Source: an uncultured Bacteroidales bacterium (lineage in GTDB: Bacteria > Bacteroidota > Bacteroidia > Bacteroidales > Paludibacteraceae). Taken from it: DNA of 5,939 bases. The first letter of the stretch is position 1. Every line of letters starts with the position of its first letter. Below are positions 1 to 5,415 of the stretch, piece by piece. A program made the position numbers and the translations under genes. A model generated the notes under the pieces. That model saw nothing but the letters and a program-made list of their open reading frames with translations. It was not told the DNA's origin and made no database searches. Location of the stretch: positions 1 to 5,939 of the forward strand of contig CAIQOG010000134.1 in NCBI GenBank assembly GCA_903873355.1, given 5' to 3'.

Positions 1-101
1 AAATAAGTACGAAAAGTTCCAAAGTAAAAGTAGTGGTTATTCCGACTGATGAAGAATTCATGATTGCCTCTGATACACTGGTAATTCTTCAGAATTTATA
101 G
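1..101 (+). CDS. C-terminal fragment of a plus-strand protein, possibly ending in an RCK/TrkA-C-like domain
   Basis: An open frame enters from the left edge (codons start at position 3) and ends at TAG 99-101, giving 32 residues. The readable tail contains VKVVVIPTDEEFMIASDTLV and ends ILQNL. Its pattern is a hydrophobic strand, a P-T-D-E-E turn, then an x-x-S-D-T-L-V-I-L strand. This resembles the end of RCK_C/TrkA-C domains, which commonly close with a 'GDtLvvl' strand and occur in potassium channels and transporters. The fragment is too short for a firm family call. It is read as coding because the frame is open to the window edge, the composition is protein-like, and a strong terminator hairpin follows 21 bp after the stop. 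It converges on the small minus-strand ORF with only 2 bp between the two stops. The rest of the gene lies outside the window. Confidence 0.5.
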   Translation, partial: ISTKSSKVKVVVIPTDEEFMIASDTLVILQNL

Positions 102-103
102 AT

Positions 104-301
104 TTATCCCAATTCATATTTAAAAAAATAAGGCAGAACCTCATCGTCTGCCTTATTTTTTTTGCGGTTATATTGCTTCTTGCTTGCCATAACCTTTCGA
201 TAATTAATCGATTTCCCATGTGTCTGAATTTCTTCTTCGCGGCTCTGCTTTCGTGCCGCTTTTACCTGTTCCATTACGGAGTTCTTCTTTTTCTGTTTCA
301 T
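104..301 (-). CDS. Small basic protein with an internal terminator; candidate ArfA/BrfA-type ribosome-rescue factor
   Basis: A 65-residue, strongly basic ORF starts at ATG 301-299 and stops at TAA 106-104. The N-terminal part is a charged, probably helical segment (VMEQVKAARKQSREEEI, about 9-25). An HGKSINYRKV segment (28-37) and the basic cluster SKKQYNRKKNK (40-50) follow. The last residues, LPYFFKYELG, are more hydrophobic. The terminator hairpin at 122-162 covers codons 47-60 of this same frame. Its U-run falls at codons 58-60, so a terminated transcript would end before the stop codon. E. coli ArfA and B. subtilis BrfA share this arrangement and carry a basic KGKGSYxRKxKH-like cluster before the truncation point; similarity here is only in charge and layout. 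No separate TAnnTTTG promoter is visible in the 76 bp behind tsaE, so it is probably co-transcribed with tsaE. I recall similar short 'SKKxYxRK' proteins in Bacteroidota but cannot verify this. Gene reality is fairly likely; the function is an inference. Confidence 0.6.
   Translation of the reverse strand: MKQKKKNSVMEQVKAARKQSREEEIQTHGKSINYRKVMASKKQYNRKKNKADDEVLPYFFKYELG
122..162. terminator. Strong bidirectional intrinsic terminator, located inside the small ORF
   Basis: The arms 122-137 (A7 then TAAGGCAGA) and 147-162 (TCTGCCTTA then T7) are perfectly complementary over 16 bp, with a 9-nt loop (138-146). On the plus strand the T-run at 156-163 follows the GC-containing stem, so it would terminate the gene ending at 101. 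On the minus strand the complement of 128-122 gives U7, so it would also terminate the tsaE/small-ORF transcript. For the minus strand this happens before the stop codon at 106-104, which is the unusual point. Confidence 0.88.
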
Positions 302-377: not shown

Positions 378-791
378 TCAATGAATAACAATTTGTCTTC
401 TCCCGTTTTCCACTTCTTCAATATCCACATTTACCAATGAGTCGGGTAGGATAGGGGCTATATTTTCCGACCATTCAATAAAACATAGATTCCCGCTGTA
501 CAAATATTCTTCAGCTCCTAAATCAAGTGCTTCCTGAATTTTCGTAATCCGGTAACAATCGAAATGATAAATAATCCGACCATCGGCTGCTTCATATTCA
601 TTAACTATTGAAAAGGTGGGAGAATTAACAGTTTCTTTCACACCCATCATTTCACAAATTGATTTTATGAAGGTAGTTTTACCTGCACCCATTTTTCCGT
701 TGAACGCAAAAACAGTTCGGTCACCAATTTGATCAATAAATTGTTGGGCAGTTCGATTTATAGTTTTTAGTGATTCTATTTCCAATCTCAT
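378..791 (-). CDS. tsaE: TsaE, ATPase subunit of the tRNA t6A37 threonylcarbamoyl-transfer complex
   Basis: TsaE (YjeE family) is the cytoplasmic P-loop ATPase that works with TsaB and TsaD to keep threonylcarbamoyl transfer to A37 of ANN-decoding tRNAs turning over. The 137-residue length is normal for this single-domain family. Visible motifs are the Walker A GKMGAGKT (residues 32-39), the family segment SPTFSIVNEY (57-66), HFDCYR (76-81) with the conserved Asp78, and FIEWSE (104-109) containing the Glu-Trp pair essential in characterised homologues. All key residues are present. The start at 791-789 gives the expected short N-terminal strand before the P-loop. A TAnnTTTG promoter lies about 65 bp upstream, so tsaE is probably transcribed separately from uvrC. 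The small basic ORF follows 76 bp downstream on the same strand. Confidence 0.95.
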   Translation of the reverse strand: MRLEIESLKTINRTAQQFIDQIGDRTVFAFNGKMGAGKTTFIKSICEMMGVKETVNSPTFSIVNEYEAADGRIIYHFDCYRITKIQEALDLGAEEYLYSGNLCFIEWSENIAPILPDSLVNVDIEEVENGRRQIVIH

Positions 792-888: not shown

Positions 889-2706
889 TCAGGCCTTCAA
901 ATCACCTTTAAAATAGTTGTAAATAGTTGATGCTCTGCTACTTCCAACAACTTCAACAAGGTCGCTTAATTCAGCACTTCTAATTCGTTTTACGCTCTTG
1001 AAATATTTAATAAGGTCATTTTTTGTTTTTTCTCCAATTCCGGGTATTGTATCGAGTTCCGAAGCCACTTGTGTCTTGCTTCTCCTGTCCCGATGAAAGG
1101 AGATAGCAAATCGGTGAACTTCGTCCTGCATCGAAGCCAGCAACTTAAACAATGGGTCGTTAATTTTCAACCCAATTTCTTTTGGAGGAAATCCGAATAA
1201 TAATTCGCGTGTATGATGCTTACTGTCTTTTGCTAGCCCGGCAATTGGAATGTTAATCTGAAGTTCTTCTTCAATCACTTGCCGGATAACTTCCATTTGT
1301 CCAACTCCGCCATCGACTATTATCAAATCCGGCAGAGTTGACTCTTCATTTAATATACGACTGTAACGCCGCCTCACTACTTCTTTCATGGAAGCATAAT
1401 CATCAGGACCAACAACAGTCTTGATATTATACTTTCGATAATCTTTTTTGGATCGCTTTCCCTTTTTGAATACCACACAAGCTGCTACTGCATCGGTACC
1501 TGATATGTTGGAATTGTCAAAACACTCAATGGTTAATGGCGGTTTGTCCATGTGCAACAACTCTTGAATGCTTTTCATCATTTGCATGGCTCGCTGATCC
1601 GGATTAAGTTTTTCTTCCTGCTTCAGTTTATCCAGTTTATATTGTCTAACATTCTGTATAGCAAGCTCTAAGAGTTTTTTACGGTCGCCACGTTGTGGAA
1701 TAACTACTGTTGCATCCTTCAAATGGTAATTTATCTCAAACGGTACAACAATTTCCTTCGAATTACTTTGCAGGCGTTCACGAAGTTCAACTATAGCCAT
1801 CGAAAGCAGGTCTGCTTTGTCTTCATCCATGCGTTTTTTATATTCAATGGTATAGCCCTGAATAACACAACCTTTCGAAATGCGCAATATATTCACAAAA
1901 GCTGAATTTTCATTTTCATCGTACGCAAACACGTCCGTATTTTCAACCACTGTATTGGCAATAATAGATTTCGATTTATAGCTTTCAATCAAATCGTATT
2001 TTAATTTCAACAGATGGGCTTCTTCAAATTTATATTCCTTTGCCAGCTTTTGCATTTGGTCTAATAATAATTTGCTAATTTCATTTGCATCACCCCGTAT
2101 TATCTGACGAACCTGCTCTATGGTTTGTTTATATTCCGCTTCGGTTTCTTTTCCTTCACAGGCACCTTTGCATTTATGGATATGATATTGCAGACAAACT
2201 TTAAACTTTCCGGCTTCTATATTTTCTTTTGTTAGTGGTAACCTGCACGTACGAAGTGGAAATAATTCATGCACTATTTCTAAAATAGAATTGATGGTAT
2301 AGTTGGAACTGTACGGACCAAAGTACTGCGATCCGTTTTTAAATATATTCCTTGTTTTGAAAATTCGGGGAAAAGGTTCGTTGGTAATACAAATACTCGG
2401 ATACGTTTTGCCATCCTTCATTAATACATTATATCGCGGCTGATATTGTTTAATCAGATTGTTTTCGAGTAGGAGGGCATCTTCTTCAGTTTCAACAACT
2501 ATGTACTTTAAAGTTGCAATGTTTTTTACCAACACATTGGTTTTGCCCGAATCATGTAACTTGTTGAAATAGGAGCTAACCCGTTTCTTCAGATTCTTGG
2601 CTTTACCTACATAAATTATTTCATCGTTTACATTATAGTACTGGTAAACCCCCGGTTTGTCCGGCAGCGCATTTACCTGTTCTTTTAATGTGTTTGAAGT
2701 TTTCAT
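889..2706 (-). CDS. uvrC: UvrC, excinuclease ABC subunit C
   Basis: UvrC makes both the 3' and 5' incisions around DNA lesions delivered by UvrAB in nucleotide excision repair. The 605-residue length is standard, and all domains are present in order. The N-terminal GIY-YIG nuclease has GVY at 19-21, YVGKAKNLKKRV at 32-43 and the likely catalytic Glu81. A four-cysteine cluster (Cys154, 171, 179, 183) lies where characterised UvrC proteins bind an iron-sulfur cluster. A UVR helical segment for UvrB contact spans about 208-245. The RNase H-like C-terminal nuclease has ECFDNSN (Asp397), IIVDGG (Asp465) and DEVHRFA (His531), matching the D-D-H catalytic set. A tandem helix-hairpin-helix DNA-binding region beginning near DTIPGIGEKT occupies about 550-605. 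No residue loss or frameshift is seen. No clear TAnnTTTG box lies between mnmG and uvrC, so uvrC may be read from the mnmG promoter. Its leader contains the repeat arm next to the parS-like sites. Confidence 0.97.
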   Translation of the reverse strand: MKTSNTLKEQVNALPDKPGVYQYYNVNDEIIYVGKAKNLKKRVSSYFNKLHDSGKTNVLVKNIATLKYIVVETEEDALLLENNLIKQYQPRYNVLMKDGKTYPSICITNEPFPRIFKTRNIFKNGSQYFGPYSSNYTINSILEIVHELFPLRTCRLPLTKENIEAGKFKVCLQYHIHKCKGACEGKETEAEYKQTIEQVRQIIRGDANEISKLLLDQMQKLAKEYKFEEAHLLKLKYDLIESYKSKSIIANTVVENTDVFAYDENENSAFVNILRISKGCVIQGYTIEYKKRMDEDKADLLSMAIVELRERLQSNSKEIVVPFEINYHLKDATVVIPQRGDRKKLLELAIQNVRQYKLDKLKQEEKLNPDQRAMQMMKSIQELLHMDKPPLTIECFDNSNISGTDAVAACVVFKKGKRSKKDYRKYNIKTVVGPDDYASMKEVVRRRYSRILNEESTLPDLIIVDGGVGQMEVIRQVIEEELQINIPIAGLAKDSKHHTRELLFGFPPKEIGLKINDPLFKLLASMQDEVHRFAISFHRDRRSKTQVASELDTIPGIGEKTKNDLIKYFKSVKRIRSAELSDLVEVVGSSRASTIYNYFKGDLKA

Positions 2707-2785: not shown

Positions 2786-2801
2786 TGTTTCACGTGGAAC
2801 A
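2786..2801. promoter_or_regulatory. parS-like ParB binding site 2
   Basis: TGTTTCACGTGGAACA is a second CACGTG-centred site, 34 bp centre to centre from the first. Its left half is the canonical TGTTTCAC and its right half matches site 1, so one base pair breaks the symmetry (T2790 against G2797). Two such 16-mers in 50 bp are very unlikely by chance, which supports a functional ParB-loading site over a random palindrome. Confidence 0.75.
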
Positions 2802-5049: not shown

Positions 5050-5415
5050 ATGGACGGATACGAATCGAACAGACGGGATTTTCTAAAGAAGTTAGGACTT
5101 ATTGCAGGCGGTGCAGCACTTTCTGCTACTGGTGTAAATGGTGTTGCTGAATTAATTACCGAGAAGAAGGATAGTTTTACGCTTACTAAGGAGCAAGGTG
5201 TGTTTGCCAAAAAATATGAAAAATGGCTGAAAGAGTTTCACGCTATGGCTAAGTTTCAGGTTACCGATCGTGAACATATTGAAAATAATAAGAAATTGGT
5301 AGCATTATCGGAAGAAGCTAAAGTTTGGCAAAAAGAATTGATAGAGCACATGAAGGATGAGAATTTTGCCCGTTATTTTATGGTACTGACAGAGAAGGTT
5401 ACTAAAACCATCTAA
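5050..5415 (+). CDS. Small protein with a twin-arginine (Tat) signal sequence, function unknown
   Basis: This 121-residue protein starts MDGYESNRRDFLKKLG. The twin arginines (8-9) followed by D-F-L-K match the Tat pattern (S/T)RRxFLK, and a weakly hydrophobic Gly/Ala-rich stretch LGLIAGGAALSATGV (15-29) follows. There is no lipobox cysteine and no clear AxA cleavage site, so the segment could be cleaved or kept as an anchor. The mature part (about 34-121) is charged, predicted mostly helical, and lacks cysteines or recognisable cofactor motifs. Export through Tat usually implies a folded or cofactor-bearing protein or a complex with one; nothing here identifies a partner. The upstream 340 bp is non-coding. 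Downstream it converges on asd across a hairpin terminator. The ATG at 5050 is the natural start because it places the RR motif at the usual N-terminal distance. I do not recognise a named family. Confidence 0.8.
   Translation: MDGYESNRRDFLKKLGLIAGGAALSATGVNGVAELITEKKDSFTLTKEQGVFAKKYEKWLKEFHAMAKFQVTDREHIENNKKLVALSEEAKVWQKELIEHMKDENFARYFMVLTEKVTKTI

Follow-up and report, generated by a model that had tools for sequence, protein, structure and literature searches.

We propose that a 65-codon open reading frame (ORF) on the minus strand (301-104) of the window, i.e., the whole 5,939-nucleotide stretch of DNA analysed here, encodes a Bacteroidales counterpart of ArfA and BrfA: a small, basic, release-factor-dependent backup ribosome-rescue factor whose message would be non-stop and whose level trans-translation would keep low. 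We put the probability of this reading at about 75%. The case for the non-stop layout itself is strong at the sequence level: a terminator lies within the ORF, so most of the mRNA should end without a stop codon once RNA polymerase halts there. A ribosome reaching the mRNA 3′ end near codons 58-60 would stall, and tmRNA-SmpB would normally tag the product for degradation. When trans-translation is overloaded or lost, an untagged protein of about 58-60 residues would accumulate. By analogy with known factors, its C-terminal SKKxYxRK segment would insert into the mRNA channel left empty in a stalled ribosome, and the rest of the protein, N-terminus and middle, would recruit a release factor, most likely RF2, freeing the peptide.

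The ORF (protein MKQKKKNSVMEQVKAARKQSREEEIQTHGKSINYRKVMASKKQYNRKKNKADDEVLPYFFKYELG) is preceded by an in-frame UAA immediately 5′ of its ATG and stops at 106-104. The hairpin AAUAAGGCAGA/UCUGCCUUAUU lies at 162-122 of the minus strand (stem-loop core 158-126, U7 at 128-122), spans codons 47-60 and is backed by folding, by our terminator finder and by frozen synonymous sites. Its A-run pairs with part of the U7, and the stem is counted as 16 bp in this way; with that detail, translation and folding bear out both the terminator placed 5′ of the stop and the 16-bp stem with U7 of the preliminary description. The RNA of 310-95 (minus strand) folds with a z-score of −4.5, equalled by none of 200 shuffles. 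The U-run extends to codon 60, which lies five codons 5′ of the stop, and we infer that the mRNA 3′ end falls at codons 58-60. A simple consensus terminator scan of the window did not return the in-ORF hairpin, we suspect because the stem consumes the U-run, and our own finder does detect it. The opposite strand folds likewise, with U8, so the same hairpin may double as the terminator of a convergent open frame truncated by the window start, whose 3′ end lies at 3-101 (plus strand). Within the protein, an AlphaFold2 model of low confidence (mean pLDDT 67.6) places helices at residues 9-28 and 34-47. The first of these (218-277, minus strand) carries the VKAxRKxSREEE string conserved in alignments A1 and A2, and the basic motif KKQYNRKKNK follows at codons 41-50 (152-181, minus strand).

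By homology, the ORF is a member of a large unnamed Bacteroidales family. The window protein retrieved 217 homologues at E ≤ 0.01, 120 of them listed. A 27-member profile retrieved 612 proteins at E ≤ 0.1 and a distant-clade profile 1,187 at E ≤ 0.01, each with 120 listed. Among the matches listed, named sources are Paludibacter or Paludibacteraceae and the product is a hypothetical protein; two automatic product names (E3 component, Skp chaperone) look wrong. Searches of genomes at E ≤ 0.01 gave matches in 19 of 295 from the order (profile A1; the count includes the centre genome and one very weak match), in 8 of 395 from the class (profile A2, three weak) and in 31 of 101, 13 of 18 and 26 of 151 from three taxonomic families (profile A2). 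Profile A1 found no phage copies among viral contigs. Neither the window protein nor 18 family members had a significant match in Pfam or NCBIfam, the best chance matches of these members having E-values of 0.047 and 0.02. L051, L052 and L113 were excluded before counting as incidental matches, the weak matches L041, L095 and L120 were not counted as members, and the weak members L039, L050 and L119 were retained.

A conserved block ending in a hairpin-coded string of the KAD..LP[YF] type is kept in all 121 proteins (window protein plus 120 listed homologues); beyond it the sequences diverge and lengths run from 60 to 113 aa. Conservation within the window's clade thus reaches the end of the U-run at codon 60. 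Over 101 aligned rows the most constant positions are the R of SRE and the S, K, K, Y, R and K of SKKxYxRK, the latter six at 92-99%. Several proteins (L004, L021, P0081, P0092 and P0108-P0111) have strongly differing N-termini, with inserted GGFRGL-type strings, and a constant remainder, so that the first residues may be dispensable. L039 (E 3e-6) is an atypical member with KKKHARGGKHKKRYR in place of SKKxYxRK. The weak homologues L050 and L119 (E about 6e-4 to 8e-4), which have another hairpin type in the ORF close behind KRKYDR, may form a further branch of the family.

The preliminary description had placed a terminator between basic motif and stop in one ORF; this arrangement recurs among the homologues. 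The hairpin is present in 21 of the 22 closest loci, and the ORF stays open through it in 20, the exceptions being L021, in which a stop just precedes the hairpin, and L022, where the contig ends. L009 has a shorter loop that shifts the frame, and its ORF is still open. Family-wide, 48 of 105 loci have an in-ORF terminator according to the finder, all at −10.3 kcal/mol or better; a 49th, in L090, falls outside the finder's limits and was read from the sequence. As a control we took 298 ORFs from the neighbourhood, each 120 aa or longer, counting as inside the last 120 nt of the ORF: the strongest terminator lay inside in 3, across the stop in 3, after it in 60, and 232 had none (0 inside, 1 across and 54 after at −10 kcal/mol or better). 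With the same finder the family gave 47 inside, 3 across, 5 after and 48 none (n = 103). The difference in in-ORF terminators has a Fisher p of 1.8e-21, which is only a guide, since related family loci are treated as independent.

The in-ORF terminators are not of one kind. Shared 9-mers sort them into eight clusters, namely the GGCAG type, L034, the UCCGGA type (6 loci), L037/82/93, L086, L088, L089 and L050/119, the last from weak homologues. The hairpin of L090 is of the L086 type and that of L092 of the L088 type, L092 having first been grouped with the GGCAG cluster through a chance 9-mer. Because L089 shares UCCGGA with another cluster, we speak of about seven unrelated hairpins. Family hairpins measure 23-46 nt and carry U-runs; the unrelated ones of distant clades begin close behind YxRK and are still in frame. 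An open frame through the hairpin was dropped as evidence in itself, frame 0 being open by selection and the +1 frame being open in 45 of 48.

Synonymous sites over the hairpin are frozen in the window's clade, which upholds the expected bias there. Among 18 close loci, 9 of 10 hairpin codons are invariant (entropy 0.03) vs 2 of 30 upstream (entropy 0.87; p = 7e-6), a test that leaves out L009, L018, L020 and L021, with differing frames or loop lengths, and L022. Among 17 distinct GGCAG hairpins, one core-adjacent pair is A-U in 11, G-C in 4, G-U in 1 and A-G in 1; outer and flanking stem pairs vary, with several mismatches. The invariance of the GGCAG core is itself no evidence, as it was the search string.

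The family-bearing genomes were also searched for other rescue systems. In 30 of them, the set to which the RqcH, SmpB and tmRNA counts refer, SmpB was found in 29 and a tmRNA over the cut-off in 27; the tags read GENNYALAA in five of six loci and GEENFALAA in one. An RqcH domain was found in none of the 30, nor was ArfB over the cut-off. Among 80 further genomes, ArfB over the cut-off was found in none of 38 that have the family vs 12 of 42 that do not. Pooled, none of the 68 family-bearing genomes has ArfB over the cut-off, compared with 12 of the 42 others (p = 3e-6). The counts are 0/68 vs 4/31 (p = 0.008) once the 11 class-wide genomes are set aside, and 0/18 vs 4/14 (p = 0.03) within the taxonomic family of genome G147, presumably Bacteroidaceae. 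Phylogeny and incomplete assemblies are confounders here, and ArfB over the cut-off is also missing in 30 of the 42 family-free genomes. Under our reading, the family would cover for ArfB and RqcH, not found in the searched family-bearing genomes. Two of those 30 genomes do have short ORFs with a release-factor domain below the ArfB cut-off, one of 138 aa (G044) and one of 207 aa (G147). Such ORFs of 207-213 aa, below the cut-off and too short for RF1/RF2, were seen in G147, G720, G702, G780, G722, G715 and G721, and we take them to be possibly PrfH.

A resemblance to the mRNA-channel segment of ArfA is suggestive. The family motif R[VI]xKxKK-YxRKxK(H) aligns with ArfA 28-46, as RVxKxKK, a gap for GKG and YxRKxKH. 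In hhalign comparisons with 11 ArfA sequences, the score of the whole family was equalled by 4 of 300 column shuffles; rows with KH after YxRK (20 of 101, chosen post hoc, with ordinary stops) gave 1 of 300 and rows without it 33 of 300. The window protein does not have the KH pair, and a single ArfA compared with A2 scored a probability of 0.2%. None of 18 members matched the ArfA family PF03889 at E ≤ 10, where HMMER filters remove most matches above about 0.1, and the window protein had no match to it at E ≤ 1. A search of PDB chains with profiles A1 and A2 (E ≤ 10) matched neither ArfA nor BrfA. Passages of PMC5378476 state that ArfA residues 31-48 occupy the mRNA tunnel and that truncation at Asn47 is tolerated; those of PMC6881298 describe BrfA residues 30-40 touching RF2 and Lys49-His50 in the channel.

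The best surviving alternative is that the protein senses the failure of trans-translation, by which it would be repressed, and then regulates, hibernates or degrades rather than promoting peptide release. A non-stop layout reveals control, not activity, and the PF03889, PDB and hhalign comparisons do not prove homology to a tested rescue factor. However, those genes with this layout that are described in passages of PMC6881298 and PMC8012679 are backup rescue factors, the basic C-terminal motif resembles the ArfA mRNA-channel segment, and the searched family-bearing genomes show neither RqcH nor ArfB over the cut-off. We regard a function other than rescue as unlikely.

It is also conceivable that an ordinary small basic protein had its stop drift past a bidirectional terminator shared with a convergent gene, the overlap being neutral. 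U-runs on both hairpin strands would fit this, as would the downstream gene, which in 11 of the 22 close loci is convergent and belongs to a single cluster (an M13 peptidase in L001). The read-through tail is consistent with it too, as it is with our own reading. The variable tail of the window (codons 61-65 and the stop UAA, 104-121, minus strand) is as long as expected from other frames: from U-run to stop the median is 7 codons in frame, compared with 7.5 and 11 for the two alternative frames (p = 0.49), and the tail beyond the terminator looks unconstrained. The hydrophobic tail noted in the preliminary description, after a basic cluster that is indeed present, exists in the window but is not conserved in relatives; a functional degron was dropped for the same lack of pattern, tail lengths and sequences looking random. 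Shared tail strings, e.g., FSTGTN..ASYH, recur among homologues, and we tentatively take them to be the convergent M13 peptidase gene read in antisense. Nevertheless, 20 of the 22 close loci retain the layout, including those whose downstream neighbour runs in the same direction (L002, L007, L010, L014, L018 and L019), distant clades show it again with about seven unrelated hairpins, and it is rare among 298 neighbouring genes. A neutral overlap is thus quite improbable. Slippage on the A8 before the hairpin, which would lead to an immediate UAA, a product ending in YNRKKK and an mRNA that is not functionally non-stop, is very improbable: the window does have A8 and then UAA in the −1 frame, and L021 has one extra A and that stop, but the stem sequence accounts for this UAA, and an A-run of that length is missing from L007, L024, L025, L026 and L030 as well as from the unrelated-hairpin loci L034 and L037.

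Upstream of the candidate rescue ORF, the window holds tsaE (378-791, minus strand; PF02367, 2.3e-38) and then uvrC (889-2706, minus strand; PF08459, 6.8e-57). The uvrC-tsaE order is shared by 17 of the 22 close loci; L003, L009 and L010 start too near a contig end to judge, and L006 and L011 have other neighbours. The proposed association with tsaE thus holds for the window and its clade but not for other clades, where uvrC-tsaE was absent from the two nearest upstream frames; since neighbours differ there, we dropped this neighbourhood as a functional clue. In the taxonomic family of G147, neighbours include members of aldehyde-dehydrogenase and carbamoyltransferase families. Elsewhere in the window, TGTTYCACGTGGAACA occurs twice between uvrC and mnmG, at 2752-2767 and 2786-2801 (plus strand), with two matches in none of 200 shuffles. 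We take it to be a parS site bound by ParB; parS sites are often close to the replication origin. A 121-aa ORF at 5050-5415 (plus strand) begins with the twin-arginine-like RRDFLKKLGLIAGGAAL, has no Pfam match above the cut-off and may encode a small exported protein.

Not all of the family carries the switch. Members from the taxonomic family of G147 and most from that of G179 have an ordinary stop and no in-ORF terminator; measured from the first base of the Y codon through the stop, the distance is usually 39-54 nt, and in L065 and L068 a terminator lies across the stop. One row, probably L048, has a misplaced motif and appears as a 279-nt outlier in these distances and as a long branch in the tree. 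The tree, made by a quick search with a simple model from 100 rows and 54 columns, has 46 rows with the switch and 54 without, and implies at least six state changes, a number to be read with its poor resolution and many open forks in mind. As about half of the sampled family, mostly other clades, has an ordinary stop, the non-stop layout appears to be clade-dependent regulation, and in the ordinary-stop clades the same protein would presumably be outside this control. The earlier suggestion of a Bacteroidota counterpart of ArfA and BrfA is supported: in the window's clade both the kept in-frame terminator and the synonymous-site bias speak for it, and several distant clades have unrelated hairpins at the same place. 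The 54 of 100 rows with ordinary stops qualify it, and the rescue activity is putative. A further-reaching hypothesis is that this is an ancient Bacteroidales family of rescue factors, distantly but truly related to ArfA by way of the mRNA-channel segment, that its switch, probably ancestral, was lost in whole clades and re-created at the same site by about seven unrelated terminators, and that the family takes the place of ArfB and RqcH. We offer it tentatively and consider it less likely than not.

Passages of a survey of 15,259 genomes give arfA in 0 of 1,956 of the group holding Bacteroidota (PMC11633108), and those of the BrfA study expect unidentified rescue systems (PMC6881298). In the open-licence literature, which does not cover bioRxiv, we found no paper evidently on such a rescue factor in Bacteroidota, or matching this one with internal terminators. 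If our reading is true, it would name one hitherto missing rescue system, in Bacteroidales, and suggest what backs up trans-translation in genomes that lack ArfB and RqcH. It would also add a further case of the terminator-in-ORF switch, and the unrelated hairpins and the switched and unswitched clades would offer natural replicates for studying the evolution of such feedback.

Compared with known systems, the proposed factor shares tmRNA-independent rescue with ArfB (YaeJ). ArfB, however, has its own GGQ motif, as passages of PMC6881298 describe, and the 65-aa window protein has none; ArfB over the cut-off and the family were never found together in the searched genomes. ArfT of Francisella, compared by description alone, is likewise a small protein enabling RF1 or RF2 on non-stop ribosomes, according to passages of PMC6881298, PMC8012679 and PMC6514570, but it has about 40 residues, as given in PMC8012679.

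With ArfA of Escherichia coli and relatives, the family would have in common a small basic protein, a hairpin behind the basic motif and the suggestive RVxKxKK(GKG)xYxRKxKH alignment. It differs in having neither a PF03889 match nor KGKG, and in a dissimilar N-terminal region. Our finder, applied to ten arfA loci as a positive control, placed a hairpin behind the KGKG motif, inside the ORF in 2 and across the stop in 7, with none in 1; in nine arfA loci it measures 44-50 nt vs 23-46 nt with U-runs in the family. According to passages of PMC8012679, RNase III may cleave the arfA transcript, whereas the family hairpins carry U-runs.

BrfA (YqkK) of Bacillus subtilis, which we compared through its description, belongs to a different phylum, has the Lys-His pair that the window protein does not have, and was not matched in the PDB by A1 or A2. 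The points in common lie in the layout. Passages of PMC6881298 describe a terminator in the coding region, a product of about 62 of 71 residues and N-terminal helices, which in the family are predicted from a low-confidence model; the intrinsic terminator, basic C-terminus, non-stop mRNA and trans-translation control described there for BrfA are the features that we propose for the Bacteroidales ORF.
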